Assembly (NCBI RefSeq): GCF_963675165.1 | Contig: NC_087377.1 | Coordinates: 14,132,198-14,196,197, forward strand | Reading direction: 5' to 3' | DNA length: 64,000 nt | Origin: Halichondria panicea | Lineage: Eukaryota; Porifera; Demospongiae; Suberitida; Halichondriidae | Part shown: positions 5,935-47,096 of the stretch, in pieces | How positions within the stretch are numbered: position 1 is the stretch's first letter | Layout: every line of letters starts with the position of its first letter | Position numbers and translations under genes: made by a program | Notes under the pieces: model-generated | Databases searched by the model: none | Seen by the model: the letters and a program-made list of their open reading frames with translations, nothing else | What the model was told of the DNA's origin: nothing

Positions 5935-6140
5935 ACAATTACTGGTCCGTATGCCTGGTTAGTATTCAGTTCAATCTCCTCTTTGGGTGACACCTCCTCA
6001 TAAACAGGATCGACTGATGCAGTGAATCCCTGGCAGGCTACGTTAGCTTGTCCTTCAGCTGCCGGGGGAGTACAATGTCTTCTTACGCATGAGCCAGTAC
6101 ATCAAGAGAGCACCACAAACACAACCAGAAACTATTGCTA
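5935..6140 (-). pseudogene. Type A receptor fragment A0: membrane helix and tail
   Basis: On the minus strand this encodes the end of a type A membrane helix (IVSGCVCGALLMYW), a basic stop-transfer MRKK, and a tail that keeps YEEV and EEIELNTNQAYGPV. An extra C after the helix (TCC CCC GGC AGC TGA) shifts the frame into a stop. No CCP, FN3 or Ig exon lies within reach on the same strand before the plus-strand fragment at 6547, so this is an orphan 3' piece. The intact homologue is the last exon of the gene at 40958-42474. Confidence 0.75.
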
Positions 6141-6546
6141 AAAGATAAATAGATAAATATCAACTACTAAGTCTTCAAGAGCTGAAAATGTGCTAGTGTC
6201 TGATAAACGGTAAGAACAGACAAAAAAATCGATCATCAGACACAACCTACCGTTTCTTCTGTAGGGGGATATGCTGAGAGTCACATATAATAATTATTTA
6301 AGGACAATGACTAAACAATAAAACCCGCAAAGTTGGAGTTGCAAAACGCTTGTATGTCCATGCAGCAATTATTTCTGCTGAGTCACTTGCGTATCAATGA
6401 TCAGACAGAAAATGAGGTCAAATGTTCTTGGCATCCCACGCAACTGGGATCAAAGGTCATATGTTTTAGTGGGCGTGAAAAGAAAATTTTTTATCACTGC
6501 TTGTTTCCTCAGAATGAGTGTCTGAACATGCATTGTGTCTGAATAT

Positions 6547-7285
6547 AGATGCCTTACTCTAGCACTCTGCTGACAGCATGCATTTGCCATTATTTCAAAT
6601 GGTACATATTGCATGGAAGATTCAACTCTCATTTGCAATACTTTCTGTGTTTATTTCATTACAGATGTGTGTTTCACAAACCAACAAGTTCCCAACAGTT
6701 TTCTTGATGCAATGTTAGTACTTTCATGCGCTGGGATAGGAATCCTTCTCCTCTATTGGGTCTTCAAAGTATATAAACAGCGCACTAAAGGTAATTTGGA
6801 GAGTGAACAAATCAGGTTTTCTTTTTCATTCTTTCTTATTTTGTGTATAATTATATAGGAACCAAAAACAAGCTTGAAACAAATCTCATATTGTGACTAT
6901 GCTCTTATAGCCTGAACATCAAGTCAAAAACAGTTCACGCTCAAGAGTCATCTGAGGTGATAAATTGTTTTAATCTTGACAGAATTATTCATTTGCAATT
7001 GCTATTCAGAAGCCACCTGATTCTCAAGAGTGCCAGCATTTGGAAGATGCGCATTCTGATGGCGTTGAGAAAATGGTTCCAATGCAGAAGAAGCCTTCGA
7101 ATGGCAGCCAGCTAATGACGACACCTAGTAGGAAATGTCCACCCTCTACACTTCCCAAACAAAGAAAGTCAGCATTAACTCCAACACTATTTTGTACGAT
7201 GAGGTTGGTTTAGCGAAAACCAAAGGCAATGTTTCGGATATGACAGAAGTTGAGTTGAAAGCTAATGAGTCTTTCGGGCACACAG
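6547..7285 (+). pseudogene. Type C receptor fragment C1: 3' exons
   Basis: Homologous to exons 6-9 of the intact type C gene at 32424-35067. It holds a damaged exon 6 remnant before 6602, exon 7 at 6665-6790 (membrane helix LLDAMLV-like through YWVFK, nine bases shorter in frame), exon 8 at 6859-6956 with small indels, and the start of the tail exon at 7010. The tail is cut at 7285, just after the ESFGHT motif (ESYGHT in the intact gene), where a CAGGGGCGTAGG transposon end begins. Upstream Ig and FN3 exons are absent. Confidence 0.8.
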
Positions 7286-7420
7286 CAGGGGCGTAGGCAG
7301 GAATTTGAGGAAGGGGGGGCTGAACTGAAAGGGTGCGAAGCACCCGGTTTCTGGTGCTTTGCGCAGAGCGCTGAAAATTTTCGGTTACCGGAAACCACAC
7401 CTCCTAATTAATGACTCATT
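7286..7420. mobile_element. End of a CAGGGGCGTAGCC-family element
   Basis: CAGGGGCGTAGGCAGG begins exactly where homology to the type C tail exon stops. The same end sequence bounds elements at 22093-22248, 39300-40887 and 60992-61385. The GGTTACCGGAAACCACACCTC stretch also has a counterpart near 61262-61290. The opposite end is not clear. Confidence 0.6.
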
Positions 7421-7869: not shown

Positions 7870-8849
7870 ATCAATGTGAAGAGTTATCGTAATCGATTAA
7901 TCTGCCATTGGTTGTTGACTCGGGAGTATCACAGAGCATCAAATCTTCTGTAACTGATTAACAAGCACCCTCATGTGTATTACATTCAATTTAGCATGAC
8001 ATCACCTGATAAAAGGTAATCGTGGAAGACAGAAAAACTGTCTCCCTTTGTATGTAGCCTTAATAGTGAATAAATAGCAACTTGTCTCTTCTCTTGAAAC
8101 CGGGAGCTCCACTACTGTTTGGCACTTCATGGAGCAAGTCGTACTATTGACCCACTTTATTACTGTTGAGTTGGTTATAGTCACAGTGATCATGTAATCA
8201 GTTTGGCATTCCGTCTAAATTAATAGAAATTTAAGTTCATTGTTAATTATACTGATCTGACTTCACTCACAGATGGTGTCCATGTAATTGTAATGCCGTT
8301 TGGATCATCAGTTGTGTTTACTGTAATCAACTGAGGTTCTTCTGGAATTCTTGGTTCTTTAATGGTCACATTCACATCGAGACTATGATGAAGTTCTGGA
8401 TCTCCACATGTGATGTCAGTTACATTGTGCTCCTGTAGCTGTGATAATTCAACAGTGAGAACTGAAGAGAAGTTACTAAATCGCTGATCTGCCAAGCTTC
8501 GTGATACATGTGTTAGCTGGACAAATTGGAAAGGGGACTCAAGGCTCAGACGTATAGGAGCTGTGATAGTATCGTCTGGTACAAATAAATGAATCACATA
8601 GTCCTCTCGATTGTACGACCATGCCAAAATGCTGAGGTCCACTCCCTCACAGAACAGTCTGACAGTTCCTGGACAGTGTTCATCAACCAAACTCACTCCT
8701 CCCTCAGCAGTCAGAGAGGCACTTGTAAACACTAGCCCTAAGAATTTTGTCAGCTTATAGGTTCTCTATAACAGTAAATTAAATCTTACCAGTAGTTAAG
8801 AAAATTAGAAGAAGAACTAAGTATATCTCAAATGTACAATGTCCATCAT
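7870..8849 (-). pseudogene. Type A receptor A1: signal, Ig/FN3, partial CCP
   Basis: The best part is exon 2 (8271-8731), open throughout: Ig-like core HCPGTVRLFC...ILAW, late cysteine ITCGD, then the first FN3 strands with ITITW, and a GTGAGT donor. Exon 3 (8006-8214) carries the rest of FN3 but its frame slips before the G strand. The first ~70 bases of a CCP exon follow (LCDTPES), then homology stops near 7870. The signal-peptide exon (about 8791-8849) has an extra ~8 bases that put the ATG out of frame. Its Ig is clearly diverged from the other type A copies. Probably dead, though a start outside the visible region cannot be excluded. Confidence 0.7.
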
Positions 8850-8979
8850 CTCTTCTGAGTATAAGCCTATATCACAATGTTAACAAATTGCTTGAAGTTT
8901 TTCTGGCAGCACAGGATTCATGTCAAATTCATTGTCAAATCAGGTGATTCGTCAACTTTAACCTAAAAACCAGTAAAAC

Positions 8980-9640
8980 CAGCCCCCTCATAATTATAGC
9001 AAAGTGTTTTCTATTGGGGTATCTCTGGCTATTGAAAGTTTGTGGCAATTCTCGTAATTGGTGGCAATAATTATTTTCAGTGTATGGAAAGTGTTGGTGC
9101 ATACATGTTATACCTTATTACGTAATATTTACTACAATTTAAACCTGCTGTCAAGTTGTACTTTTGGACTCTAGCATTTAGCCTCACTATTGTTAAACAT
9201 TTCCTCTCTTTGTTCTGTGAGCCCCACCCAGGGCCTCCATCATTGTACTTTGTGCTCCTGCAGCCATTTTGTACTCACTTTGCTCTCTATCTAAGAATTG
9301 TTGGCACAGCAATAGTGAAGTCAATTTGCATGAATGCTTGCTATAGTTTAGCTACAGTATTTCAATTGCATATAGCGGAATAGAACCTGTTTCTATTTAG
9401 ATCTAGCCTGTCTAGTATCACTTAGCTAACTATTTGTCTATACCAAGAAAGGGCTCAAACAGAAAGTTTGTGACAATTCTTGTACGTGATTGCGCTGTAA
9501 ACAGATGATTGAGATATAATGATCAATTCAGCTCACACCAGTGGATGGAATACTATCTGACTCGTCAAATAATTATACCACAAAAATACACTAATAAATT
9601 ATTGGCTGGAATGTTACATGAAAAGTCATGTTTTCACACT
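8980..9640. repeat. Conserved 3'-flank repeat of type A genes
   Basis: The stretches TATTGGGGTATCTCTGGCTA, TGTGACAATTCTCGTAATT, GTTTCAGTGTATG and GTGGATGGAATACTATCTGA recur in the same order downstream of other type A copies (14630-14880, 39060-39300). They mark duplication units larger than the coding exons. Confidence 0.7.
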
Positions 9641-10218
9641 CTTACTGGTCCGTATGCCTGGTTAGTGTGGAGTTCAATCTCCTCTTTAGGTAACACCTCT
9701 TCATAAACAGGACCAGCTGATGCAATGGGTTCAGCTGCCAAGGAGTACACTGCCTTCTTACGAGAGCAAAGTTGCAGCACCCATTACTAACGAATCAGTT
9801 CACATCAATATGTCTTGTGTATCAGAGAAAGATGGTCACTCTTTATCAAATGCTGAGATTACAGGAATAAGTAGAGGCATAACGTTCTTAATGGCAACGC
9901 ATTGAGACAAAAATAATTGATGTCACGATTATATCTTGTAAAACACCTTCGCAATGTAGGTCAGCAAGATTAGGCACCCACTCTCCTCTTCCTGAAACTT
10001 TAACACAAGTTGCTGTTCTTAGGTGACTGGGAAGTAGACCATCGTCACACTGGAGCACAATTTCTGACCCCTCCATAAAACCAGATTCAGTAGATACAAT
10101 TCTAAGGCTCCCGTTGATAGGAGTAGACACACAATAGCACCGTCTTGGAGAGAAATGAGGACTAATTAAATAGTACTAGTTATAATCTAGTACCTGGTAT
10201 GATGCCACTGTATGTTAT
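9640..10218 (-). pseudogene. Type A receptor A2 with internal microinversion
   Basis: On the minus strand: a tail with YEEV and NQAYGP (9641-9763), a CCP exon (9947-10143), and about 20 bases of the FN3 exon before homology is lost near 10218. The CCP has a 10-base deletion after its first cysteine that breaks the frame. Between the tail and CCP, 9766-9897 reads as the same exon in the opposite orientation (stalk APITNESVHIN through the first helix residues), so ~130 bases have been flipped in place. Ig and signal exons are missing here; a fragment at 11041-11150 may be their remnant. Confidence 0.8.
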
Positions 10219-10238
10219 AGTTGTGACACATGCATGAG

Positions 10239-14884: not shown

Positions 14885-16341
14885 TCACACTCCTACTGGT
14901 CCATAAGCCTGGTTAGTGTTCAGTTCAATCTCCTCTTTAGGTAACACCTCCTCATAAACAGGACCAGCTGATGCAATGGGTCCTACGTTAGCTTGTCCTT
15001 CAGCTGTCGGGGAGAACACTGCCTTCTTACGAGAGAAAAGGTACATCACTACGAGTCCAGAGAGAAATCCAAGGAGGGTTGCCATTAAGAACGTTATGCC
15101 TGTGCTCATTCCTGTAATCTCGGCAATTGATAACGAGTGGCCATCTTTCTCTGATACACAAGACGTATTGATATGAACTGATTCGTTAGTAATGGGTGCT
15201 GTACATTGAGACAATTATTATAATATCACGATTCAGAAGCTGTCCTGTGTAAGACACCTTCACAAAGTAGGTCAGTAGGAATAGGCACCCACTCTCCTCT
15301 TCCTGAAACGTTAACACAAGTTGCTGTTCTTGGGTGACTGGGAAGTAGACCATCGTCACACTGGAGCACAATTTCTGACCCCTCCGTGAAACCAGATTCA
15401 GTAGATACAATTCTAAGGCTCTCGTTGATAAGAGTAGAAGGTGTATCACACACAATAGAACCAGCTTGGGGAGAAAATGAGGAACTAATTAATGGATTAT
15501 TAATACCTGGTATGATGCCACTGTATGTAGTGATATTACTAGTGAAGTCCCTATGCTGTTTCTAGCTTGAAGGGTAGCAACATACATCTTGTCATTGCCA
15601 GTCTCTCCAAAACTTCAAAGTGGACAGAGCAAGTTGTTGTACATAAACTACTGTTTACAGTTTTGTTGTCGTTAACATCATCGTAGAAAAGGGAGAGATT
15701 GTAAAGGATCTTCTCCTGATATTGAGAACATTTAACCTACAAAGTGAAATAATTAATGCAGTGAACTTTGCGACAAGCATTACAAAGTTATTAACTTACG
15801 TATTGATTCCAAGTGACTGTCAGTATATATATAGCAGACATAGAAGTATTGATGCTCACACTGAAATTATAGACATTGGGTACTGTCTCTTGTACTATTG
15901 AGATGTTTACTGAGGTTTCATTGAAGTTTAGCGCATCACCACAACTGATCCTGAAAACATTCCGTATCCCAATGGATTTTTGAGAAATGTCTAAAATAAG
16001 AACTGATGAGAAATTTGCAAAAAGTCATGATGTTGCCCCGGGACAAATTAATAAGTTGAACAGATGCAGATACCTGATCCAATGTTGAGTCGTTAAAACA
16101 TTTTGTGGTCTCATTCGCATTATCGATATCGAAGTGCTCGGAAATATACATGTCGTCATCATGGTAGAACCTCCACTCTAACAGTGTGAGGTCCACTCCC
16201 TCACAGAACAGTCTGACAGTTCCAGCTAGGACAGTGTTCACCAACCAGATTCCCTCCTCCCTCAACAGTCAGAGACACTGATGATGAGTACACCTCTTCA
16301 CTTATCATTGAAAATAAGATGATTAGTACTGCACCTATCAT
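14885..16341 (-). pseudogene. Type A receptor A3, complete layout but frameshifted
   Basis: Five recognisable blocks: signal plus Ig plus FN3 start (15800-16341; ATG, hydrophobic AVLIILFSMI, then EVYSSSVSL), FN3 end (15507-15736), CCP (15258-15464; CDTP...QCDDG...ATC...GEWVP...LC), and stalk, helix and tail (14885-15198; helix ITFLMATLLGFLSGLVVMY, then YEEV, EEIELNTNQAYGPVGV). The lesions are a CTAG insertion in the Ig start (GTTCCAG-CTAG-GACAG on plus), a one-base loss before the late Ig cysteine, and +2 and +5 insertions in the FN3 exon. CCP and tail exons are intact. The A6 gene at 40958-42474 is the functional reference. Confidence 0.85.
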
Positions 16342-18823: not shown

Positions 18824-20419
18824 CCCTTTCCTTGCCATTCGTGAAATCTGGAACAGGAGCGTCTTTAGGTCGATCAATTAGTGTGGATCCGGCCTCACCA
18901 CGCCTCCATGTCATTCTATTAGTCTAGATCCGGCTAGCAATTCTAGCTGGGACTCCCAGTTCTAGCTCGTTTTGTTTAGCGTGTCAGAGACTGGGAGAAG
19001 ATGATTGGCACTCCTTGGCTCCTTTGGATGTACAGCTGTCCAGATCCCTAGAACATACCCTCCATTCTGATGAGTTATCAGTGCATAGGGTGCTTACTAG
19101 ATTCTTGCCAGCCAGTACAGTTCAAGCTACACACAGCACCGCTCAACTATTCTCTACCCCATTATCTAGCTAAATCTGGTCCAACTAGACAGCAGACACA
19201 GCTAGTTAATTCAGTAAAGCCAGGGGTAGCCCTAGTTGGGCGGAGCCCGACCGTCCCTGACGGGAGGTCGGGTTGCAAGCCTATCTGGGATTTGTTCTAG
19301 CGCCACTATAGTGGCGCCCTATCAGATTGCAGCATTTTTCACGTGGCTTGGTTACGCATCTAGTTGCAAAACCGCATGCAGTATTGCTGTGCCATCCTTG
19401 TGGTTTACACGTCATCAAGTCGGTTAACACCCACTTGAGAATAATAATATTCATAGCAGTACTACATAATGCGCAGAACAAATCCCAGATAGGCTTGCAA
19501 CCCGACCTCCCGTCAGGGACGGTCGGGCTCCGCCCAACTAGGGTAGCCCTACTTCTACGGTTGTTCAGTACCCACGGTAACAATTCCTCTGGGCTGGGGG
19601 CTAACTAGTTGAGCCACGCCTCCCAATTCTCAAGGCTAGGTACATGTCTCTGTCTAGCTGCTTCTTCAGCTTCTTGCTCAGTTTTGTGGCTTAGAGAAAG
19701 GCCAGCTACTCAGGGGGAAGAGTCGAGATGAAAGTCTGGCAGCCAGGTGACGTCCAAACGGTCAGTTATTCTTTCCACCAACTTTTTAATCTAGTCTAGT
19801 CCTGCTTGCACTGCTACTACTACTGCTACTCTTCCTACTACTACTACTACTGCTACTCTTCCTAGCTAGTCAAAGGTTTTTTTTTTTTTTTTATAACTAC
19901 ATATGCACAAAGAGACATCAAAGCTTACATCAAAGGACACAGATTTTTAGCCTACTTGACTGATAAGGCCGTTACCTAGACTACAGTTTGTTTGTCAGGG
20001 AGGAGCTCACATACAACTTCATCTAATTCATCATAACGATTCGTTACCGTTGTGTTGTAATTTATACATGTTGAGTTCGTGCACCGAGCAGCGTGCGGCA
20101 GTTCAAGATAAGATTTAAAACATTCAACCATGGATCAACTGTATGCACAAAACATAGACGGTAAATACTAAGACAACAAAGACAGTGGAGCAGAGGCTCC
20201 CATACACAAAGGGCGCCGCTAGGAGCAGGCCGCCGGGCTAGAGCACAAAGCAATAAGATAGACCTATACAAAAGAAGTGTTAACTAGTAATAAGAACTCA
20301 TGCGCATGTACAATTAAACAGTAAACATTACAACACAGGAAACATTAAGAACAGGAAATGACTAAGTGAATAACTAACTAGCAAAGTCATTACACTACAA
20401 CAGATTGCCAAGGAAAGAG
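18824..20419. mobile_element. TIR element P1 with TTAT target duplication
   Basis: The ends CCCTTTCCTTGCCA and CTCTTTCCTTGGCA (complement of the right end) are flanked by TTAT (18820-18823, 20420-20423). The undisturbed target is visible at 30739-30757. An inverted, shorter copy lies at 39407-40356. The interior has (CTA)n-like and poly-T tracts at 19800-19885. It also holds a nested element at 19233-19540 and a further unmatched GC-rich insert at about 20056-20395. CCCTTT ends with a 4-base TTA-type target recall piggyBac; this is an inference and no transposase is seen. Confidence 0.75.
19233..19540. mobile_element. Nested TAGTTGGG element with 9-bp duplication
   Basis: Inverted ends of ~75 bases start TAGTTGGGCGGAGCCCGACC. 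Direct repeats GGGTAGCCC flank it (19224-19232, 19541-19549), and the empty site is present in the related element near 39950. The TAG start and 9-base duplication match the TAGCCTCGA elements, but the rest of the ends is unrelated. Non-autonomous. Confidence 0.85.
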
Positions 20420-20519: not shown

Positions 20520-21350
20520 ATGATGCAATGTTATGCAAGATGCTTTGTACTCTTTCTGCTAAGCTGGTTACACTACTGCCAAGGTATGTGATAGAGATAA
20601 TTATTCTAGAGACGTTATACACTATATTTGTGAACAATGATGTAGCCTCCTTTGCAAACATTTTAATGTATACAAAAATCATATGAATCTGACTCGGATT
20701 AATGCTTTAACAATTCTCACTGTTGATCTGTCAGATCTGAACAAACAGAATATTGAAATTATCTCGTGTGGTTCTTCTTTTATTGACAAGACAGTGCCAG
20801 TGAATATCAGCATTTTGCAGCCAACATTTCCTTTTGTTAGCCCCCAAGTTTATACAGCTGTGATCATACGTTATGAGTCTGGGCTTGTATCTAGTGTAGA
20901 TGTATCATGGAGAAATTTAAGGTACGTATAATTATAGTACTGTACTTCGAATCAAAATGTTTGAATGCACACTGCATTGCTGCTATAGCAACCAGATTGT
21001 CCTGAATATGAAAATTCCCAAGAATACCTCATCAATGTTAGTGGATGTGGGTGGACATGGCTCAACCACAGTACCTGTCAAGATACTATTTGCTCGTCTG
21101 TTTTCAGTAATTGTACGGAGAACGTGGTAAAATTACCCTCCAAGCCAAGATCGCTGACATTGAGAGCGAACAAGTAGTTTTTCCCACATCTGTAGGTGAG
21201 GGCAACAATCTGGTAGTTTTTACATTTATCGACTTTTTTACAGATTCCAATAATCGCTACTTTAGAGCTGCTGTTAACCAGTCATCTAGATGCCAAATTC
21301 ATGTGCAGTGTTTACCCATGAGAGGAGATGTTAGTATTCATCAAAATTAA
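20520..21350 (+). pseudogene. Type C receptor C2, 5' half only
   Basis: Exon 1 (20520-20583) is intact and encodes a signal peptide (MMQCYARCFVLFLLSWLHYC). Exon 2 has lost its 5' part including the first Ig cysteines (remnant about 20661-20921) and one base near its end. Exon 3 (20989-21195) lacks one base (AACGTGGTAAAA for AACGTGAGTAAAA). Exon 4 starts at 21244 and homology is lost near 21350, before element 21463-21992. No membrane or tail exons follow. Confidence 0.85.
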
Positions 21351-30835: not shown

Positions 30836-31888
30836 ATGATGCAATGTTATGGAAGATGCTTTGTACTCTTTCTGCTAAGCTGGTTACACTACTGCCAAGG
30901 TATGTGATAGAGATATTCTAGAAACATTATACCATTAATTTGTGAACAATGATAGGAACCTCAGTAAGTGTAATTACAGATAATGGAAAAGATACACTTT
31001 CTGGTTCTTACTGTCCTACTACTGTTAAGCTTATCTGCAATGTTACGAATGTTCCTCATTTGCGATGGACGTACAATGCCAGCAAAAACATAATTGTTAT
31101 TTTTGAATCGGATAAAGTACGACGCTACCCATGCAATTGCAGCATTTCCATTTTACCAGTTAACACAGTTTAATGTATACAAAAATCAATTGAATCGGAC
31201 TCTGCTTAATGCTTCAACAATTCTCACTGTTGATCTGTCAGATCTGAACAAACAAAATATTGAAATTATTTCTTGCGGTTCTTCTTTTCTGGACAAGACA
31301 GTGCCAGTGAATATCAGCATTTTACAGCCAACATTTCCTTCTGTTAGCCCCCAAGTTTATTCAGCTGTGATTGTACGCTATGAGTCTGGACTTATATCAA
31401 GTGTAGATGTATCATGGAAAAAATTTCAGGTACGTATAATTATTATAGTAGACTGTACTTCGAATCAAAATGTTTGAATGCACACTGCATTGCTGCTATA
31501 AGCAACCAGATTGTCCTGAATATGAAAATTCCCAAGAATACCTCATCAATGTCAGTGGATGTGGGTGGACGTGGCTCAACCACAGTACCTGTCAAGATAC
31601 TATTTGCTCGTTCGTTTTCAGTAATTGTACGGAGAACGTGAGTAAAATTACCCTCCAAGCCAAGATCGCTGACATTGAGAGCGAACAAGAAGTTTTTCCC
31701 ACATCTGTAGGTGAGGGCAACAATCTGGTAGTTTTTACATTTTTTACAGATTCCAATAATCGCTACTTTAGAGCTGCTGTTAACCAGTCATCTAGATGCC
31801 AAATTCATGTGCAGTGTTTACCCATGAGAGGAGATGTTAGTGAGCATCAAATGTGTACCATTCGATACACTACAGATCCGGATTATTA
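30836..31888 (+). pseudogene. Type C receptor C4, 5' half
   Basis: Exon 1 (30836-30899) encodes a good signal peptide (MMQCYGRCFVLFLLSWLHYC). Exon 2 (30956-31429) has the YCP...C...RW Ig core and late SCGS cysteine. A one-base slip near 31120 (between FESDK and the AFPFYQLTQF block) breaks the frame. Exon 3 (31501-31710) and the start of exon 4 (from 31751) are intact. Homology ends abruptly at 31888 in DPDYY, where an inverted piece of the same exon begins. No membrane exons follow. The 5' flank matches that of C2. Confidence 0.85.
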
Positions 31889-31989
31889 CGTTTGATTCCC
31901 TCTAAAATATCTAATAGTTGAGCACTGAACACAAACTTGGCATCTTGAAGACTGATTAACAGCAGGTCGGAAATATTGATTACAGTAAT
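31889..31989 (-). pseudogene. Inverted fragment of type C exon 4
   Basis: The minus strand reads DY(C/Y)NQYFRPAVNQSSRCQ and continues to FRGNQT, matching 33367-33465 of C5 with its 3' acceptor. It abuts the truncated exon 4 of C4 head to head, giving a fold-back junction. Confidence 0.8.
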
Positions 31990-32423: not shown

Positions 32424-35067
32424 ATGATGCTGGTGAAACTATACTGTACAAGAGGCTTTGTAATCTGTTTTCTAAATTGGCTCTACTACTGCCAAGGTAT
32501 GTAAAATGCTGTATTGTTGGCTCCTTAAAATAACTTGCATTTATGGATTCTTAATAGGAACGTCAGTAAGTTTAATTACAGACAATGGAAAAGATACACT
32601 TTCTGGTCCGTACTGTCCAACAACTGTTAAACTTATCTGCAATGTTACGAATGTTGCTAATTTGCTATGGAGTTACAATAATGGCAGTAAAGTGGACATG
32701 ATAATTTTCGATTTTCAACCTGATCATAAAGTAACTTTCGACCCGATCACGACTGATTTTTTAGCATTTCCACTTGTCCAGCTAACACAGTTCAATGTAT
32801 ATAAAAACCAAAACAATAAGTCGCAGATTAATGCTTCAACTATTCTCACTGTTGATCTCTCAGAGCTCTACAACCAGAATATTAAATTACTTTCTTGTGG
32901 TTCTGCTGTAAATAAGGCAGTACCAGTGAATATCAGCATCTTGCAGCCAACATTTCCTTCTGTTAGCTCCCAAGTTTATACAGCTGTGATCATACGTTAT
33001 GAGTCTGGACTTGTATCTAGTGTAGATGTATTATGGAGGAAATTTCAGGTAGGTGGTATAGATAATTAATAAATATAGATGTTCATTCCATGCACTATAT
33101 GGGTTGTATAGCAACCAGATTGTCCTGAATATGAAAATTCTCAAGAATACCTCATGAATGTCACTGGATGTGGGTGGACATGGACCAACCACAGCACCTG
33201 TCAAGATACTATTTGCTCATCAGTTTTCAGTAATTGCACAAAGTATGTGAGAGAAATTACACTACAAACCAAGATCGCTGACATTGAGAGTAAACAAGTA
33301 GTCTATTCCACATCTGTAGGTGAGAGCTATAACTTGGTATAGTATGTATTTCAACCGTTTTTACAGATTACTATAATCAATATTTCCGACCTGCTGTTAA
33401 TCAGTCTTCAAGATGCCAAATTCGTGTTCAGTGCTCAACTATTAGATATTTTAGAGGGAATCAAACGTGTACCATTCGATACACTACAGATCCGGATTAT
33501 GGTAATCTATCAAATCCTATCACAACTCTAGTTGGCACAGCACCTGTCTCACTTTCACTTACTACTCCTGGTACTGTGTACTACTTTGAGTTCTCTGTGT
33601 TGATGAATGATACCTTGTTGATTGTGGAAAGAATGGAGTACATGATTACAGGATCGGGAGGTATGAGTATATAAAGTAGCAACTGCTTTTGTGAGCAAGA
33701 GTCGTATAATTATAATGACAAATAATTATTTGCAATTGTATACTAAATTCCGATTACTATTGAGAATTAATTCTCACCTCTTACCGGCCTACAGAGTTAT
33801 TCCAGCTGGGTGTAAGAGAGGGTGCTATCCTTACTATTGTATCATCATTCTTAGGATGCTTTATTGTGCACACTACAATGACACTGTGCCTGTTAATAGC
33901 TTGGAATGCTAACGGTGAGTACATATCGTCACTACATGAAGCTAAGGCCACCCTCTTCATGCACAGGTGTTCATACAATATCCCGATTGAATGTGTTCAT
34001 CATTACTAACAAACGCATTCAAATCTCGATAACACTGATCCTCTTCATGCTGTTTATTGGATGTAGCACTCTGTTGACAGCCTTTGCCATTATTTCAAAT
34101 GGTACGTATTGCATGGAAGATCAACTCTCATTTGCAATACTTTCTGTGTTTATTTCATTACAGATGTGTGTTTCACAAACCAACAAGTTCCCAACAGTTT
34201 GCTTGATGCAATGTTAGTAATTTCATGTGTTGGGATAGGAATCCTTCTCCTCTATTGGGTCTTCATAACATACAAAGTATATAAACAGCGCACTAAAGGT
34301 AATTTGGAGAGTGAGCAAATCATGGACCAATGTTTTATTTTTCATGCTTTTTTATTTTGTGTATATAGGAACTAAAAACAAGCTTGAAAACAAATCTCAT
34401 TGTAACTATGCTCTTAGCCTGAACATCAATTCAAAAACAGTTCAATATAACGGTCAAGAGTCATCCAAGGTGATAATCTAGACAGAATTTAATTTATACA
34501 TTTGCATTTGCTATTCAGAAGACACCTGGTTCTCAAGAATGCCAGCATTTGGAAAATATGCATCCTGATGTCGTTGAGAAAATGGTTCCAATGCAGAAGA
34601 AGCCTTCGAATGGCAGCCAGCTAATGACGACACCTAGTAGGAAATGTCCACCCTCTACACTTCCCAAACAAAGAAAGTCAGGTCAGCATTCCAACACTGT
34701 TTTGTACGATGAGGTTGGTTTAGCGAAAATCAAAGGCAATGTCTCGGATATGAAAGAAGTTGAGTTGAAAGCTAACGAGTCTTACGGGCACACAGTCAAA
34801 AGGTTTTCAACTGCCAAGAGCAACGTGGCTGCTTGTCCACTATGTTTGTCTCCAGGCAGCAAAATCCAGCAAGATTTGTCATTAAATCATCAGTACAGCG
34901 ATCTCAAAGTGACACCAAAGAACGAGCATCCTAAGCAAAGTACTATTGAGCAAGAGCAGATAGAGTTGAAGTCTAATCAGTCATATGGTCAGCTAACAAG
35001 TGCTGTTGGTCAGATAGGGGGATGTGAACCACTGCACGAGTACGACTATATATACGTGGACCCCTAG
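32424..35067 (+). CDS. Type C Ig/FN3 receptor with three membrane helices (C5, intact)
   Basis: Predicted cell-surface receptor of 701 aa. Exons: 32424-32496, 32558-33048, 33112-33319, 33367-33660, 33795-33914, 33967-34101, 34164-34298, 34369-34469, 34519-35067; all borders are GT-AG and the frame is open throughout. Residues 1-25 are a signal peptide (ATG ATG start, core GFVICFLNWLYYC). An Ig-like domain follows (YCPTTVKLIC...LLW, late cysteine SCGS near 130-140). FN3 spans exons 2-3 and an FN3-like domain fills exon 4 (258-355). Exons 5, 6 and 7 each hold one hydrophobic helix and are all phase 1-1. The tail (486-701) has YDEV (Y582), NESYG (Y608), QYSDL (Y645), NQSYG (Y675) and a YDYIY end. 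The ligand is unknown; phosphotyrosine signalling is inferred. The only open type C copy here. Confidence 0.88.
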
Positions 35068-36739: not shown

Positions 36740-38227
36740 CTATTTACAATGTCCGAACAGTTCATTGTCAACGTAATCATACTCCACTCTCTTATCCAGG
36801 TCAGAAGTTTCTCTTGCCAAACCATACGAATGATTCGTTTCCATTTTCACCTTTGTAGCTCCACTACTTCTCACTTCACCATACGACAAGTTAGCTTTCA
36901 ATTTCATCTCTTCATCTGGTCGTGAACGTTGCTTCTTTGACTCTACATAAGACTCGTTAGGAAATAACTTTTCACTCGGTTTTGTAAAAACACTAGTTCG
37001 TTTTATTGGATCATCGGCCTCACAATAGGAGTGAGTCAGGTCTTCATTTTGCTGTTGTGTTTCTTGATTCGAATAGACAACCTCCTGATCAATTTCCCTT
37101 GACTCTTGTATTCGTATTTCCGGTGCAGTCTCTCTCGGTTGCACTTCAGTCTCCGTTTTTGTTTTCAATTTTAATTTTTTCAGCAGAATATAGTATACAC
37201 CAACTCCCATGACGAAACCGAGTACAGAAGAGAATATGAATACAACAATTGTAGTTGCTACGGTCACTCCGATAGATACAACTCCATTGGAACTGCTGTC
37301 TGTCACTGAAAGTACAACTGATGTTAAAGGCTCATGCATTAATAGAACTCACCAATAAAAACATTTTCTGTGACAGGATCACTTCTCCCCACGTCGTTAA
37401 TAGCTCCAACACGTAGTTACCATCTCCGGAGTGAGGGACAGTGAATGTGACCCTGCACACCATTGTACAGTCACCACCACTAGTTGTTAAGATTTGACGA
37501 TCATCACTCCCAGTTAAGGTGATCTCATAGCGGATTTGCTGTCCATAATGAGGGCATACCGAAACCTACAAGGAAATATATGGATGTGTATAGTGCCCTG
37601 GCCAGTGACTCAGTGCTATAATGAAATGCATGCATAGTAAAATCAATAGCTTACTGGTGGTTCCCATGAAATTAGTAGCAGAATATAAGCAGAAAAGTCA
37701 ACAGATGTTTGAATATTGAATTGTTGAGGGTCTTTTGGTTGTGACTGTTGTCTTATCTGAATATCAATAGGGATCATCTGGTAGTTTGCTGGATCTCCGC
37801 ATCTGATTTCATTAATGTGCTGATCCACAATCGGTGAGATGTCGAGAGTAAGAGTGGAAGAAAAGTTTCCGTAAATTGGGTTAGCTCCATTTTGTGAAAC
37901 TGCTCTCAACGCAACAGAAATGAAGGCTGAATTCAATTCAATTTGAGTGGAGGTCACGCTGTCAGGGTAAAATGAATGAATTTCTTTGTTAGTGACATTG
38001 TAACTCCAACGCAAAGTAGTGAGCTGCACTCCTTCACAGAACAGTCTGACAGTTCCAGGACAGTGCTCACCAATTAGACTTGCTCCTCCCTCAACAGTCA
38101 GAGAAACACCTGCAACATGATTGCATGTAGCTGATCACAATAAACAAGGGATCTTACTCATTGCTCTGCTTTTTCCAACAGTGAAGGACAATAAAACAAT
38201 ATGCATTAACAACTGAAGTACTCCCAT
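36740..38227 (-). pseudogene. Type B receptor B2, one frameshift
   Basis: Exons: signal 38158-38227 (MGVLQLLMHIVLLSFTVG), Ig/FN3 37655-38109 (EHCPGTVRLFC...LRW, IRCGD, then LLISWEPP), FN3 end 37353-37565, helix and tail 36740-37317. Relative to B1 the FN3 end lacks 7 bases at GAGCT-ATTAAC plus 6 further on, so the frame is lost before the helix. The tail itself is fully open: helix VATTIVVFIFSSVLGFVMGV, then VVYSNQ, HSYCEA, NESYVE, LKANLSYGEV, METNHSYGLA and EYDYVDNEL. If a full-length allele exists it would be a single-pass Ig/FN3 receptor with at least seven tail tyrosines. A second acceptor 12 bases downstream of the exon 4 start is also in frame. Confidence 0.8.
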
Positions 38228-38508
38228 CTTACTTGAGGTAGACTATACTTAACTTGCTAACTGGATGTTCCAAAATTCATGAGAGTTTCCCAAAAACATG
38301 TGATTCAATTCACAGGTGCATGCAGTTTATTTTAATTCATGCACCTATCAATTACTGATGTGAGTTATATTTATGAGTGAATAGCTGAAGAAATAACAGT
38401 TGCACAAACTTCAATTGCTTTCTACACGGTTATGATGAATTATATATAAAGTATACACACTAGTAAGCAACAACACACAGCATGTCCTTGATTTGTATTT
38501 ATAAGTTA

Positions 38509-38621
38509 ACACTGCATGGTCCATAAGCTTGGTTAGAGTTCATTTCAATTATTTCTTTGGGTGACACCTCCTCATAAATAGGAACAGCTGGTACAGTGGG
38601 TCCTTGTCCTTCAGCTGCCTA
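38509..38621 (-). pseudogene. Type A tail fragment A5
   Basis: Minus-strand tail with YEEVSPKE, IIEMNSNQAYG and a stop. It corresponds to the tail of A4 at the end of the segmental duplication. Nothing upstream is retained, and it lacks the 56-base insertion seen in A4. Confidence 0.75.
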
Positions 38622-38624
38622 ATT

Positions 38625-39299: not shown

Positions 39300-40887
39300 C
39301 AGTGGCGTAGCCAGAGGGGGGCAGAGGGTGCTCCAGCACCCCCCTCTGGCCTCAGACTCTGCTCCACAAGTTCCTTAGCTAAGCTACATGTAGCTAGCTA
39401 GCTTATCTCTTTCCTTGGCAATCTGTTGTAGAAATTACAACAATGGGTAAGGAATCGTTATGATGAATTAGATGAAGTTGTATGTGAGCTCCTCCTGACA
39501 AACAAACTGTAGTCTAGGTAACCGCCTTATCAGTCAAGTAGGCTAAAAATCTGTGTCCTTTGATGTAAGCTTTGATGTCTCTTTGTGCATATGTAGTTAT
39601 AAAAAAAAAAAAAAAAAAGAAACCTTTGACTAGCTAGGAAGAGTAGCAGCAGTAGTAGTAGGAAGAGTAGCAGTAGCAGTAGTAGCAGTGCAAGCAGGAC
39701 TAGACTAGATTAAAAAGTTGGTGGAAAGAATAACTGACCGTTTGGACGTCACCTGGCTGCCAGACTTTCATCTGGACTCTTCCCCCTGAGTAGCTGGCCT
39801 TTCTCTAAGCCACAAAACTGAGCAAGAAGCTGAAGAAGCAGCTAGACAGAGACATGTACCTAGCCTTGAGAATTGTGAGGCGTGGCTCAACTAGTTAGCC
39901 CAGCCCAGAGGAATTGTTACCGTGGGTACTGAACAACCGTAGAAGTAGGGCTACCCCTGGCTTTACTGAATTAACTAGCTGTGTCTGCTGTCTAGTTGGA
40001 CCAGATTTAGCTAGATAATGGGGTAGAGAATAGTTGAGCGGTGCTGTGTGTAGCTTGAACTGTACTGGCTGGCAAGAATCTAGTAAGCACCCTATGCACT
40101 GATAACTCGTCAGAATGGAGGGTATGTTCTAGGGATCTGGACAGCTGTACATCCAAAGGAGCCAGGGAGTGCCAATCATCTTCTCCCAGTCTCTGACACG
40201 CTAAACAAAAGGAGCTAGAACTGGGAGTCCCAGCTAGAATTGCTAGCCGGATCTAGACTAATAGAATGACATGGAGGCGTGGTGAGGCCGGATCCACACT
40301 AATTGATCGACCTAAAGACGCTCCTGTTCCAGATTTCACGAATGGCAAGGAAAGGGTTATATGAGAAAACTAGAGCCGCGATCAACTCAAAACTCCACCT
40401 CCAACTAGCTAGCTCCACCTCCAAATTTCATTCCAGCCAGTGCACATGCGCAAAGCCACGTGGGCTGAGCAGACCAAGGTCCCCCACAGAGTTGCAGACT
40501 ATTCAGCAGCTATCACCATCATCATCATGTCACTCTTTCAGTTGAGCCCAGTTCACAGAGCAGCACTGCAAAACTGCAAGTGGCTTGCCACCCTGTCCTG
40601 CTAATTCACAAGCAGAACCTGGTTAGCAGCTGCATGATTTAATTAATTGTCACAACTCAAAACAATGCATTTTATAGGACATAATTCAGATGAAGATGTG
40701 GCTTAACCACCAGTACCCTCAAAGCAGCAGTACCCTCATTTTTTTAGCCAGATTGCGTTAGAATCAATCTCAGAGCATGTAACAACAAAAATTTTCTATG
40801 CGTATTTTGCACCGCTGGAGCGCACTGGTAATTCAGACAATCCATTCATCCAGCACCCCCCTCTCTCAAATCCTGGCTACGCCCCTG
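39300..40887. mobile_element. CAGTGGCGTAGCCAG element carrying a nested TTAT element
   Basis: The ends CAGTGGCGTAGCCAG and CAGGGGCGTAGCCAG (complement of the right end) are flanked by TATCT (39295-39299, 40888-40892). The undisturbed target is seen at 14806-14822 downstream of A3. Inside, 39407-40356 is a complete TTAT-flanked element (ends CTCTTTCCTTGG and complement), the inverted relative of 18824-20419. No intact transposase. It sits in the 3' flank of the intact A6 gene. Confidence 0.9.
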
Positions 40888-40957: not shown

Positions 40958-42474
40958 TCATACTCCTAATGGTCCATACGCCTGGTTAGTGTTCAGTTCA
41001 ATCTCCTCTTTAGGTAACACCTCTTCATAAACAGGACCAGCTGATGCAATGGGTCCTACGTTAGCTTGTCCTTCAGCTGCCGGGGAAAACACTGCCTTCT
41101 TACGAGAGGAAAGGTGCATCACTAAGAGTCCAGAGAGGAATCCAAGGAGTGTTGCCATTAAGAATGTTATTCCTGTGCTCATTCCTGTAATCTCAGCAAT
41201 TGATAACGAGTGGCCATCTTTCTCTGATACACAAGACGTATTGATATGAACTGATTCGTTAGTAATGGGTGCTGTACATTGAGGACAAAATTATAATAAT
41301 TCAGAAGCTATCTTGTGTAAGACACCTTCGCAATGCAGGTCAGCAAGATTAGGCACCCACTCTCCTCTTCCTAAAACTTGAACACAAGTTGCTGTTCTTG
41401 GGTGACTGGGAAGTAGACTATCGTCACACTGGAGCACAATCTTTGACCCCTCCATTAAACCAGATTCAGCAGATAAAATTCTAAGGCTCTCGTTGATAGG
41501 AGTAGAAGGAGTATCACACACGATAGCACCAGCTTGGGGATAAATGTATGGGGACCTAATTAAATATGGGTTATAATTATAAAGTAGATCTAATACCTGG
41601 TATGACGCCACTGTATGTAGTGATATTACTAGTCCCTATGCTGTTTCTAGCTTGAAGGGTGGCAACATAGATCCTGTTATTTCCAGTCACCAATACTTCA
41701 AAGGGGACAAAGCAAGTTGGTGTACATACACTACTGCTCACACTTTTGCTATAGCTTGTATTTTCATAGAGAAGGGAAAGATTGTAAAGGATCTCCTCCT
41801 GATATTGAGAACATTCAGCCTGCAAAGCAAATATGATGCAGTTGACTTGCGACAAAACCAATGCATTACAAACTTACGTATTGTTTCCAAGTGACAGCCA
41901 GTATAACCATAGAGGGGACAGATGATGTATTGATTCTTACACTGAAGTTGGAGACATCGGGCAGTGTTTCTTTTACTATTGAGATGTTCACCGAAGTGTC
42001 ATTGTTGTTTACTGGATCACCACAGCTGATTCTGTGTATTTCAGTGGCTATTTGAGAAAGTTCTAAAATAAGAATTAATGAGAAATTTGCAAAAACTTTA
42101 GAACTGTGCTGTGATACTTGAACAAGTTCGACAGATGCAGAGCCCAATGATGAATTGATAAAAACTTTTTTGGTACCATTCACACTATCCGACACAAACT
42201 TCTCAGAAGAATATGTGCTATCATTGTAGTACAACCTCCACTGTAGCAGTGTGAGGTCCACTCCCTCACAGAACAGTCTGACAGTCCCAGGACAGTGTTC
42301 ACCAACCAGACTCTCTCCTCCTTCAACAGTCAGAGAGACACTTGTAAACGCTAGGCCTATAATGATTTTGTCAGCTTATGTTCATAGCTAATATAACAGT
42401 ATACATTAAACAGTAATCTTACCAGTAAATGTCGAGAAAATTAGAAGAAGAACAAAGTAATGTACAGTGCCCAT
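40958..42474 (-). CDS. Type A Ig-FN3-CCP receptor, single-pass (A6, intact)
   Basis: Predicted 422-aa type I membrane receptor. Exons: 42423-42474, 41878-42350, 41597-41819, 41326-41532, 40958-41271; frame open, all GT-AG. Signal peptide 1-18 (MGTVHYFVLLLIFSTFT). Ig-like domain ~20-130 (EHCPGTVRLFC...LQW, late cysteine ISCGD). FN3 ~132-249 split by a phase-0 intron (VTWKQY | AECSQYQ; ends ATLQARNSIGTSN). One sushi/CCP 250-318 (VCDTP, LQCDD, TATC, RGEWVP, LHC), in a phase 1-1 exon. Stalk, helix ~349-372 (ITFLMATLLGFLSGLLVM), RKK stop-transfer, tail with YEEV (Y400) and EEIELNTNQAYG (Y417). YEEV resembles ligands of Src-type SH2 domains; use in signalling is an inference. The only open type A copy here. 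Confidence 0.88.
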
Positions 42475-43295: not shown

Positions 43296-43734
43296 TATAG
43301 ACTATAGTTGCATGGTATATATACCCTTAGTCTGAGAAGGTTGTGGTTTTGGCATATTGTTCGCCAACAATATAGATGTTTTGAAAAGCCACTAAGGCAA
43401 GAGGGATATTTCACTGGTCAATCGAATTAAGCGTGGTTGACTAACTGGGAAGTGCATGCAGTAACAGTAAACTTAGGTGTAAAGTGGACCTTGTGACCAG
43501 TTTTGTATGTTTCCAGCAACACACTAAAACTGAACCCACTTTTTGAGATTGGGGGAGGTCAATTTTTGATTATGGCAGGAATATGAATTAGTATTACGGT
43601 GATAAGAAAACATGTCTTCATCATCATTGAGGGTATAATGTGACATGTGCAATGCATGTGCTATAGCAAAACTGCTTTTTCTGCCTTATAATTATATACT
43701 CTTAATTCAGGATGTTCACCGTATACAGTAACGT

Positions 43735-44110
43735 CCGTTGGTTCATCACACTGTGTGATCTCCTTACTGTATCATGTTTACTATCAATTGAAGTTCTTCT
43801 GGAATTCTTGTTCTTTAATGATCTCCACAGTTACATCATGTTCCTGTAGCTGTGATAACTCCGAGAACAGAAGAGAAGTTACCAAATTGCTGTTCTGCCA
43901 AGTTTTGTGATACATGTATTAGGTGGATAAATTGGAAAGGGGACTCAAGGCTCAGATGTATAGGACAGTATTATTTGGTTCAAATAAATGGATCACATTG
44001 AGTGCCATCTCCATTGTATATAACTTGTCAAATGGTGAGGTCCTCTCCGTCACAGAACAGTCTGATAGTTCCAGGACATGCAGTGTTCACCAACCAGACT
44101 CACAATCAAA
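43735..44110 (-). pseudogene. A1-like Ig exon fragment
   Basis: Matches the A1 Ig/FN3 exon (8280-8700) in order, with many indels and deletions, including a TGCA insertion in the start of the Ig (CCAGGACA-TGCA-GTG on plus). No open frame remains. Confidence 0.65.
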
Positions 44111-44695
44111 CTCGACAGCCATGCAGAGAGACACTATTATACTTATACTCAACGTGGCAGACCTGTCAAATGGTCAGGATATTGTATACCGTGTAGAAGA
44201 AGTGTTCTAAGTGTGTGAAGTGTTCTAGTTGGTAATTTTCGTCATTTAAATATTTAGTATTTTTAATATTCCTACAGCTCGGATTAGAGACGTTGAATCT
44301 ATTTGTGTTCATAGTTTTAACTTTTGTACGATGCTCTTCAATCGAATATTTATACCATACGAAAACAACCCGCTAATACGGTTACCGTATATATAATCCG
44401 GAATGAATGTACCTAAGCACAATGCTTGAACGTAGAATAAGAAAGCTATGAGAAATTGCACTTAGCAGCTCACACATGCATATATATTATAGTGACTTGT
44501 TATAATTATACACCTCCCCATAAGATGAACTTTCTGATTTCCATCAACTCAAAAACAGTCAAGACACCATGATTATATAATAAGGTCAGTTATACTTCTC
44601 ATCTGTAATTTATGCACATGCATTGTTATGTAAAACGTTAGCTATAACCATAATAATAATGGCTGGATTGTTACATGTACATGCACTAACACAGT

Positions 44696-47096
44696 CTATA
44701 CTGGTCCATACGCCTGGTTAATGTTGAGTTCAATCTCCTCTTTGGGTGACACCTCCTCATAAATAGGACCAGCTGGTATAGTGGGTCCTACGTTAATAGC
44801 TTGTCCATCAGCTGCTGGGGAGAACACTGCCTTCTTCCGCATGACCCAGTATGTCAAGAGAGCACCACAAGCACAACCAGAAACCATTGCCACAATAAAT
44901 GTTACAATGGTGGAAATCACAGCAACTTCATTGATGGTCAGAGAAACTTCTTTGGAATCTGTAAATCATGTCAAAACATTGTCAAACATGTAGACTAAGA
45001 TCACCTCATTACAGTCAATATACCGTATACTAGAATGTTTTACGAGAATCAAATAAGTGAAATATGCAAGGGTTGATCAAAACACAATAGTTAAATCGCA
45101 AAGGGTCAATTTTCTGCTGATTTGGCTCATTCGCAAAGGTTTTTCACCAGCAAAGTATTCTAGCAATTCATATATGTACTAACCCTAACCCTTACATGCA
45201 CATATATCTTATAAGTATGAGTTAATTGCTCCCTGCATGAAAACAAACAGCAAGCAATGTACATAAGTATCATTATCCTGTAGATGTAAACTGCAATGAT
45301 AAACAAGCGCATTTATTATTTATAGCTAAATCAACTGTTGTGTAAACAGTATAGGGCTCAATGAATGGTTCATACTCTATAAGTGCTGTTTTGGGTGATT
45401 TAAAATCCGGCACATATAATTTATAGCAGGCTTTTAGGGAATCGCAGAGCCCCATGCATGCATGTTAGGCCATGTAACAGCAGTAATACCGTGCTTGTTC
45501 TAAATCATTAAAGCGCTGTTTTTGAACTATAATTATACAAATAATTAGTGCTTAATTCGTTATAAAACAATGCTATGCAGTGACTGACTTGGAATATTTA
45601 CCTTGTCGTAAGCACTTTAGCACTTCAAGGTCGAGACTCCACCGGTACGTACTATTACAGGCAAAGATATTCTGTCCAATGAGCTTGTATCCTTCTTCAC
45701 ACCAAAATCTGATAGTTAAATGTTCACCAGTGCTTGTGTAGGAATATTTGAGTAATAAGTTGTTGGTTAGCTTTTTTGGAAGAGCACTGCATTTCTCTGC
45801 ATAAATTATACAAGTATATATAGCATACACGTTATTTTAAAAAACACTATACTATGTATTTATAATTGAGGGGAGAGTGATCCAACCCACAAAACCAGTA
45901 TTATATACAGGAGGATAATTTCAAAGACTATTTTCCTATTATTTTTTGGAGGATTATGTGCAGCATTTTATTTTGTGTTGGCCACTCAGCATGTCTTCAA
46001 TTTTATTACTGTTATGTAGTTAACATTACCTTCTTCACAAAGTAGGTCAGCAGGATTTGGCACCCACTCTCCTCTTCCTGAAACTTTAACACACATTGCT
46101 GTTCTTGGGTGACTGGGAAGTAGACCATTGTCACACTGGAGCACTATTTCTGACCCCTCCGTGAAATCAGACTCAGTCGATAAAATTCTATGACTCCCGT
46201 TGATAAGAGTAGAAGGATCACACACAATAGATTCTGAACCAGTTTGGGGAGAAAACGAGGACCCATGCAATTAAATATATAATTTAATAATTATATACCT
46301 GGTATGATGCCACTGTATGTAGTGATATTACTAGTCCCTATGTTGTTTTTACAACATAGATCCCAGTTTCCAAAACTTCAAAGGATACAGAGCAAGTTGG
46401 TGTGCATACTCTACTGTTCACAATTTTATTGTCATTTGTACCATCAAAGAGAATTAGGGAAACATTGTAAAGGATCTCCTCTTGGTATTGTGAACATTCA
46501 GCCTACAAAGTATTAAAATGCAGTTGACTTGCGGCATATTTTTATGAGCTTACGTATTGATTCCAAGTGACTGTCAGTATAGAAGTATTGATGCTCACAC
46601 TGAAATTATAGACATTGGGTACTGTCTCTTTTACTAATGAGATGTTCACTAAGGTTTCATTGAAATTTCGTGCATCACCACATCTGATCTTGAAAACCTT
46701 CTGTATCCCAATGGCTATTTGAGAAATGTCTAAAGAAAGAACTGATGAGAAATTTGCAAAGATTCTCAAAATTTTGTCCTGGGAGAACTCAACAAGTTCG
46801 ACAGATGCAGACACCAATGTTGAGTCATTAAAGACTTTTGTGGTCTCATTCACACTATCAGTATCAAAGCGTTTGAGCAAATACATATTGTCATCATGGT
46901 AGAACCTCCATTCTAACAGTGTGAGGTCCACTCCTTCACAGAACAGTCTGACAGTTCCAGGACAGTGTTCACCAACCAGACTCACTCCTCCCTCAACAGT
47001 CAGAGACACTGATGATGAGTACACCTCTCCATTGATTATTGAAAATAGTATGACTAGCAGATCTATTGCACTTGCAATTGGCTTGTACAGTGTCAT
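44696..47096 (-). pseudogene. Type A receptor A7 with two CCP exons, disrupted
   Basis: Exon 1 (46554-47096) is open over 181 codons: signal or anchor (IDLLVILFSIINGEV), Ig core EHCPGTVRLFC...LEW, IRCGD, FN3 start. The FN3 end (46299-46502) lacks 13 bases where A6 reads ATLQARN and hits TAG. The first CCP (46030-46233) uses a shifted acceptor: the usual AAG has become AAA and a new AG lies nine bases on. A second, quite different CCP (45602-45796; RFWCEEGYKLIGQ, FACNSTYRW, VLKC) is phase 1-1 like the first. Helix and tail (44696-44959) keep YEEV and EEIELNINQAYGPV, but an extra T in the stalk shifts the join. Without repair it would give a secreted Ig fragment. Confidence 0.8.

Follow-up and report, generated by a model that had tools for sequence, protein, structure and literature searches.

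We analyzed a 64,000-nucleotide stretch of contig C1 (C1:14132198-14196197; hereinafter, the window) of an assembly of 131.5 Mb in 39 contigs and found that it is one fragment of a multi-megabase array of receptor genes with immunoglobulin (Ig), fibronectin type III (FN3) and complement control protein (CCP, or Sushi) domains. The window probably belongs to a complex of cell-surface recognition receptors that were diversified in the germline through exon exchange, a reading directly backed by the array itself, the architecture of the genes, the predicted fold of the Ig domain, the decoupling of the exons and the conservation of the tails.

The exon encoding the transmembrane (TM) segment and the cytoplasmic tail of the receptors with one membrane helix has at least 150 matches in the genome, all with E <1e-21, a lower bound given that 150 of the 288 candidates were scored. 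Of these matches, 149 are located within C1:11249223-14927788 and one on C7, and 147 are free of stop codons; the array spans approximately 3.7 Mb of the 18.1 Mb contig. The other exons of the family show the same confinement (window copies are denoted below by names in W, loci fetched for comparison by names in L, and positions without a contig name are those within the window). The Ig exon of W41 has 81 genome matches, with 73 in C1:13.95-14.54 Mb, 7 elsewhere on C1 and a weak one on C15, and 74 of the 81 lack stops, though several are halves of one frameshifted exon. The Ig exon of W32 has 74 matches, all on C1, as are the 20 matches of the long-tail exon (7 with stops) and the 27 matches of the three-helix tail exon (10 with stops). 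A second Ig type, typified by L003, accounts for at least 122 genome matches, 120 of them on C1 and 106 without a stop (150 of 165 candidates scored). A preliminary description of the window had proposed a clustered, duplicating receptor locus of the recognition type; this proposal is well supported and extends to a larger scale, with 149 tail matches over 3.7 Mb and an Ig exon that varies independently. The boundaries given in that description fit the window but leave off most of this far larger locus.

Within the window, loci were delimited by self-comparison of the open reading frames (ORFs), in which Ig, FN3/CCP and tail exons are repeated on both strands at 5931-47114. Sixteen related loci or remnants emerge from the comparison, in agreement with the earlier estimate (about 16, on both strands), and an Ig exon is present in 11. 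All three of the C-terminal halves distinguished earlier are recovered: CCP with one helix (e.g., W41), a long tail with one helix (W37 and W28) and three helices (W32 and W23). The E-values of matches to non-self copies (9e-96 for the W41 Ig exon, 1e-123 for the long-tail exon, 1e-122 for the three-helix tail exon and 2e-96 for the W32 Ig exon) indicate that the recurrence of these exons is beyond chance. Three loci, W41, W32 and W37, were spliced by hand at GT/AG sites, and two of them, W41 and W32, are open; the other 13 were classed as broken or partial by their exon frames, and to this extent the earlier statement that only two copies are open holds. The W41 protein consists of 424 amino acids encoded in five exons (52, 479, 223, 207 and 314 nt) and has the architecture Ig-FN3-CCP-one helix, with a single TM and with 14 N-glycosylation sequons among its first 350 residues; its Ig exon begins in phase 1, ends in phase 0 and includes the first FN3 strands. 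The W32 protein (701 amino acids, nine exons) comprises an Ig domain, FN3-like domains and three hydrophobic segments by the Kyte-Doolittle scale. The loci are as follows.

42474-40958, minus strand: W41, intact; signal exon, Ig exon (41878-42356), FN3 exon, CCP exon, TM and YEEV...NQAYGPL tail; hand-spliced, open.
32424-35067, plus strand: W32, intact; Ig exon (32558-33048), FN3-like exons, three membrane helices, long tail with YDEV, two NxSYG and EYDY; hand-spliced, open.
36740-38227, minus strand: W37, long-tail, one-helix copy and source of the modelled Ig domain; on hand splicing, frame lost in the third (FN3) exon and kept in L019, L022 and L023.
27907-29221, minus strand: W28, second long-tail copy; Ig exon truncated, tail interrupted (stops at C1 14160271 and 14160104); from exon frames and genome matches.
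23668-26271, plus strand: W23, three-helix copy; premature end of the Ig exon frame, tail 96% identical to that of W32; from exon frames.
45610-47114, minus strand: W46, CCP-type; Ig exon open, FN3 exon split over two frames, one CCP exon identified by match and a second by eye; from exon frames.
43782-44965, minus strand: Ig remnant interrupted by stops (43782-44099); TM/tail exon (44699-44965) open and perhaps part of W46; from self-comparison.
14888-16268, minus strand: W15, CCP-type; frameshifted Ig and FN3 exons, open CCP and TM/tail exons; from exon frames.
7877-8765, minus strand: Ig exon (8271-8735) and FN3/CCP pieces; from self-comparison.
9637-10175, minus strand: CCP and TM/tail remnants; from self-comparison.
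5931-6147, minus strand: one-helix-type TM/tail remnant; from self-comparison.
6574-7403, plus strand: three-helix-type helix and tail remnants, with the tail match at C1 14139183; from self-comparison.
20641-21347, plus strand: three-helix-type Ig and FN3-like fragments; from self-comparison.
29534-30468, minus strand: FN3/CCP/TM/tail remnants; from self-comparison.
30946-31892, plus strand: three-helix-type, Ig and FN3-like exons frameshifted; from self-comparison.
38447-38618, minus strand: one-helix tail remnant; from self-comparison.

Broken copies prevail in the window, where 14 of the 16 loci are broken or partial, but this cannot be generalized to the genome, in which nearly all one-helix tails and most W41-type Ig exons lack stops and the long-tail and three-helix types are mixed. 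For the analysis of the array, 28 regions (8 and 20) were taken from the 150 scored tail matches, mostly from the top rows. Most of these regions show the order Ig-FN3-CCP-TM-tail, typically with two or three CCP domains (range 1 to 3), and 24 of them match the L003-type Ig query. An automatic splicer produced open genes for 14 of 38 tail-anchored loci, 11 of these being anchored by an Ig exon. It under-detects such genes, having failed on W41, which is open by hand, and its gene models include questionable joins, namely an intron of 35 nt in L057, the omission of FN3 in L028 and read-through of introns in L003, L017, L046 and L059. In its output, the introns between the array domain exons are mostly in phase 1, so that the array Ig exon is symmetric and could move between genes with the frame preserved.

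The identity of the FN3 and CCP domains emerged from relatives of the window copies. Given that Pfam is blank on single window ORFs, we turned to these relatives and to fold prediction. All 12 window ORFs scanned score below the Pfam cut-offs, Sushi/CCP coming nearest with 20.5 against 20.7 bits; neither Ig nor FN3 was detected by Pfam in ten single window ORFs, and NCBIfam returned nothing for the three exons scanned. Among the array relatives, L043 (28.7 bits) and L045 (25.7 bits) pass the fn3 cut-off of 25 bits, with L003 (15.3 bits) and the spliced long-tail FN3 (19.8 bits) below it, and the spliced W41 FN3 matches only LIFR_D4, also below the cut-off (E 0.0088). The Sushi cut-off is passed by L003 (36.1 and 24.4 bits) and L001 (33.4 bits), and the window copies, at 20.5 and 15.1 bits, fall short. 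The names FN3 and CCP for the window exons are accordingly supported by way of their array relatives and not by the window ORFs themselves. The domain names assigned earlier can therefore be retained inasmuch as FN3 and CCP pass Pfam in some relatives and Ig is found in a predicted fold, but no window ORF attains a Pfam cut-off.

No Pfam Ig model reached its cut-off among the family members scanned; when 20 array Ig exons were scanned singly, weak matches to Ig_2 (10 exons) and Ig_3 (7 exons) were obtained, the best with E of 0.022 and 0.023, far from the cut-offs. The trimmed Ig domain of W37, modelled with AlphaFold from window copies only, has a pLDDT of 75 and a pTM of 0.74, a better result than an earlier model of the W41 Ig exon with part of FN3 (pLDDT 62.7, weak Foldseek matches). 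The best VIA-align rows for the W37 model are CD300lf (Z 8.6, 2.8 A over 92 residues, 16% identity), TCR Valpha (8.5) and CLM-1 (8.4), and all 50 rows listed are, by title, antibody, TCR, MHC or CD300-type chains or their complexes. Alignments of the two Ig types (A4 and A5) contain the conserved C...W...C pattern, i.e., the cysteines of strands B and F and the tryptophan of strand C. The model and this pattern place the N-terminal domain, by predicted fold, in the immunoglobulin superfamily. Sequence profile searches of the PDB gave 31 matches for A4, none with E <0.1 (24 antibody and 4 poliovirus-receptor chains), and zero matches for A5. Direct comparison of A4 and A5 with hhalign (E 8e-4 over 24 columns, probability 25%) points to a common CP...C...W core and is suggestive only of a relation between the two types. 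In both, the CP motif just ahead of strand B supplies an extra cysteine that may form a second disulphide.

The Ig exon varies independently of the remainder of the gene. L043 and L003 share only 36% of the residues in the Ig domain, compared to 98, 93 and 98% in CCP1, CCP2 and CCP3 and 98% in TM; the corresponding nucleotide differences are 53% for Ig, 15% for FN3, 4, 4 and 2% for the three CCP exons and 3% for TM. For Mantel and pN/pS analyses (pN/pS, the ratio of nonsynonymous to synonymous differences per site), copies with stops, N or less than 75% coverage were dropped, leaving, out of 28, 20 Ig, 23 FN3, 19 CCP1, 24 CCP2, 27 CCP3 and 28 TM exons. In one-sided Mantel tests on the 15 array genes that retain all five tested domains, Ig distance is unrelated to that of TM (rho -0.06, p 0.73), CCP2 (-0.11, p 0.93) and CCP3 (0.04, p 0.32) and is barely tied to that of FN3 (0.14, p 0.07). 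By comparison, CCP2 tracks TM (0.63, p 0.001) and CCP3 (0.41, p 0.03), and CCP3 tracks TM (0.25, p 0.05). An individual break point can be seen between W41 and L010: through the end of the Ig exon they differ at 31 of 728 sites, whereas beyond it the count is 4 of 920 (Fisher p 7e-8). This edge is the boundary of a conversion or crossover, close to where the Ig exon ends. L009 and L018 resemble W41 only to approximately the end of the CCP exon, with an unrelated 3' part beyond. Both the exchange of the Ig tip and the conservation of a stalk-tail cassette are evident from these gene comparisons.

Pooled pN/pS amounts to 0.59 and 0.71 in the two sets of Ig exons, compared with 0.50 and 0.45 in those of TM/tail exons, and ranges from 0.46 to 0.66 in the FN3 and CCP sets. 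In 15-codon windows, pN/pS is 0.13 for the Ig framework (GEHCPGTVRLFCEGV), 0.77 for the adjacent variable segment, 0.91 for one array Ig window and 0.14 for the core of the tail. Going by these ratios, the pattern is one of constraint plus freer segments, without proof of positive selection.

The tails themselves retain a pair of tyrosine motifs. A search for P(V/I/L)YE in the 63 fetched loci identified 34 tails in 32 loci, and the second tyrosine, in NQ(A/T)Y, is kept in all 34. When the second motif was used for the search and the window was included, 51 tails were found: 42 are one-helix, each with YE.(V/I/L) upstream and a spacer of 13-15 residues between the tyrosine motifs, and 9 are long-tail or three-helix. 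NxSYG is common to the latter two types, as is YDY in most of the copies shown, and the three-helix type also contains YDEV; none of these motifs occurs in the fetched stretch of three loci of another Ig subfamily (L037-L039). The consensus of the immunoreceptor tyrosine-based inhibitory motif (ITIM) is (S/I/V/L)xYxx(I/V/L). The one-helix tail does not fit it (PVYEEV, QAYGPV); the long tail fits at LSYGEV and VEYDYV and the three-helix tail at VLYDEV, a six-residue motif being weak evidence. SH2 domains have at least 71 matches in the genome (e.g., a close pair at C3:8405372-8406287), and hence candidate phosphotyrosine readers exist.

Based on these features, we propose a model of the complex, in which we infer surface expression, phosphorylation, ligand recognition and a signalling output. 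Each gene would encode a signal peptide, a ligand-binding N-terminal Ig domain, a stalk of FN3 and CCP domains, an anchor of one or three helices and a tyrosine tail, the conserved tyrosines of which would be phosphorylated and recruit SH2- or PTB-domain proteins. Diversity would be made in the germline, where copies in the array would undergo unequal crossing-over and gene conversion, the break points lying near exon borders. Such exchange would place different Ig exons on near-identical stalk-tail cassettes, keep these cassettes homogeneous and generate damaged by-products, among them the 14 broken or partial loci of the window. The three types of anchor and tail probably give different outputs, for instance, as activating and inhibitory partners. 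The ligand could be conspecific (allorecognition) or microbial, and we assign about equal weight to the two. A more specific version is possible, albeit on the doubtful side: a sponge histocompatibility-like complex with hundreds of Ig-FN3-CCP receptors arrayed over 3.7 Mb, in which germline recombination joins varying Ig tips to a stalk and two-tyrosine tail that stay constant, and one-helix and three-helix partners oppose each other.

Several results weigh against the interpretation of the array as a diversified recognition complex. With respect to the fold, the V-type rows are at the top (Z 8.4-8.6) with C-type rows less than 1 Z behind, in effect a tie between the two subclasses, and the Foldseek E-values are not significant (best 0.018 for the W41 model and 0.019 for the W37 model). 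With respect to exchange, FN3 is also loosely coupled (rho 0.13-0.21 in the 15 genes), so that exchange is not limited to Ig, and it is coupled to CCP2 (0.74) and CCP3 (0.51) in larger gene sets; in the near-window set, some coupling exists between Ig and CCP (0.37, 66 pairs), next to 0.03 for Ig and TM. The Ig distances are bimodal, reflecting the two Ig types, which blunts the rank tests, and the genes were fetched via conserved tails, which narrows TM variation. Pooled pN/pS for Ig exceeds that of the TM exon but is below 1, such that positive selection is unsupported, and the near-window CCP value (0.66) is above that of the near-window Ig (0.59); 15-codon windows exceed 1 once in Ig (10.6 on a pS of 0.014) and twice in the TM exon of the near-window set (1.50 and 1.05). 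The consensus of the immunoreceptor tyrosine-based activation motif (ITAM) is YxxL/I, 6-12 residues, YxxL/I, and the one-helix tail (YEEV, 13-15 residues, YGP V/L) fails it, its first half having V where the consensus has L/I and its spacer being too long. Finally, equal-scoring Ig exons come in pairs on C1, namely 11693477/12411037 and 11705653/12423220 (both approximately 717.6 kb apart), 12000368/12567656 (567 kb) and 12351503/13671111 (1.32 Mb); these could reflect duplication of multi-gene blocks or duplication in the assembly, and false duplication is a possible contributor to the size of the array.

The most credible alternative, to which we nevertheless give a small share of the probability, is a homotypic code for cell adhesion or tissue patterning comparable to the clustered protocadherins, neither immune nor concerned with self and non-self, in which the variable Ig would confer binding specificity and the tail would connect to the cytoskeleton or to kinases. 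The Ig-FN3 architecture and single-pass anchors are indeed typical of adhesion molecules as well, and pN/pS below 1 in all pooled domain sets is compatible with such a role. However, the many broken window copies together with exon exchange would imply a faster turnover than is usual for adhesion codes, and the 36% Ig identity of L003 and L043, despite 93-98% in the CCP and TM exons, is similarly at odds with it. Clearly less probable is a lineage-specific expansion of receptors that bind a variety of soluble or environmental ligands, with a chemosensory, feeding or cytokine-like role: an Ig and CCP ectodomain with a tyrosine tail would be unusual for chemosensory receptors, even if the size and clustering of the family are reminiscent of them and the FN3 part of W41 is weakly nearest to the LIF-receptor domain noted above. 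The least probable, by a little, is an old duplicated family in decay that seems larger than it is through segmental or assembly duplication, which would account for the broken window loci, the stops in long-tail and three-helix tails and the repeated offsets of equal-scoring Ig exons but not for the 147 of 150 one-helix tail and 106 of 122 second-type Ig matches without stops, the constrained tail core (pN/pS 0.14) or the presence of open genes.

Among known systems, the nearest in design to the proposed recognition complex is Alr/ARC of Hydractinia, a likeness of architecture. Like Alr/ARC, the C1 array consists of clustered transmembrane Ig-superfamily genes, and Alr proteins are single-pass TM members of this superfamily with low identity to each other, many presumed pseudogenes and AlphaFold-confirmed domains (PMC11067881). 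The C1 array differs in its at least 150 tail-exon matches, the Ig-FN3-CCP ectodomain, the three-helix subfamily and the homogenized stalk-tail cassette. Botryllus fuhc is also a single chromosomal locus with highly diversified proteins in a sessile animal, but is a highly polymorphic one (PMC12065747, PMC3691228), whereas the diversity described here, in one assembly, is between paralogues. Expansions of SRCR (PMC4772301) and NLR (PMC12909245) genes have been published for sponges, and such lineage-specific expansions with a proposed recognition role (see also PMC10855680) are comparable to the present family, which, in contrast, is Ig-led; no SRCR, NACHT or LRR match was found in the exons scanned. 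The Ig-like receptor tyrosine kinase of Geodia (PMC12018476) likewise carries Ig-like domains on a sponge surface receptor but is a kinase, whereas no kinase domain was detected in the spliced W41 protein or the window tail exons scanned.

In vertebrates, the paired leukocyte receptors are encoded by clustered genes and have more than one type of tyrosine tail, and the CD300/CLM proteins provide, with TCR Valpha, the top rows for the W37 Ig model. At 16% identity, with rows of the antibody constant type tied within 1 Z, an FN3 and CCP stalk in the present family and a one-helix tail outside the ITAM and ITIM consensus, this likeness of fold does not imply descent.

If the more specific version, that of a sponge complex, is correct, the array would represent a receptor system with variable and constant regions outside Bilateria and Cnidaria that operates without somatic recombination, and in any animal it would offer a case for how variable receptors evolve without such recombination. 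Sponges are capable of precise graft rejection. Should the genome be that of a sponge, a single mappable Ig-led complex with exon exchange and a fixed signalling tail would be a candidate locus for recognition of self and non-self or of symbionts. The main text of a 2017 transcriptome study of sponge grafting does not contain the words 'immunoglobulin', 'receptor' or 'sushi' (PMC5450542). The family had been suggested to be undescribed, and no description of it was found among the open-access literature matches listed, most subscription papers being outside that search.

Several additional observations concern the surroundings of the array and the rest of the assembly. In L040 (2329-2796; C1 at approximately 14.014 Mb), a PX-domain gene with a kinase-like start, as judged by eye, adjoins an Ig receptor copy. 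In the window, a near-identical inverted pair at 18928-19604 and 39898-40252 (95-100% in translation) is likely a dispersed repeat, and 47651-57768 is occupied by an element of about 10 kb whose inverted repeats are near-perfect (733 nt arms, 99%) and contain a 167-base unit in tandem arrays. This element resembles a mobile element with long array-bearing ends, and its internal 135-amino acid ORF (51437-51841) has no Pfam match. An Rfam scan of the window gave no match.

Elsewhere, C1:5280527-5280718 contains a COX1 fragment with two in-frame TGA codons, probably mitochondrial DNA copied into the nucleus; the assembly has no further match to COX1, and the mitochondrial genome was accordingly not found there. 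The ATP synthase c profile has four genome matches in two adjacent pairs, read as V-ATPase, and the profile search detected no clear nuclear gene for a mitochondrial-type c subunit in the assembly. In demosponges, atp9 is mitochondrial, and the apparent lack of a nuclear c subunit fits the same arrangement here; it is a weak hint, and the only one obtained, of a sponge origin of the DNA. A silicatein-like query produced 37 matches; in the three loci read (L061-L063), the cathepsin-type frames keep a catalytic-type cysteine, and silicatein is not demonstrated by these loci, most of the other matches being unread. At C8:493351-520709, large open cathepsin-like frames lie in a row and appear to form a tandem family of peptidases. 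FN3 exons also occur in dense runs on other chromosomes, at C4:4.38-4.43, C3:6.68-6.72, C8:6.57-6.66 and C7:5.01-5.02 Mb, and possibly represent other clustered receptor families.

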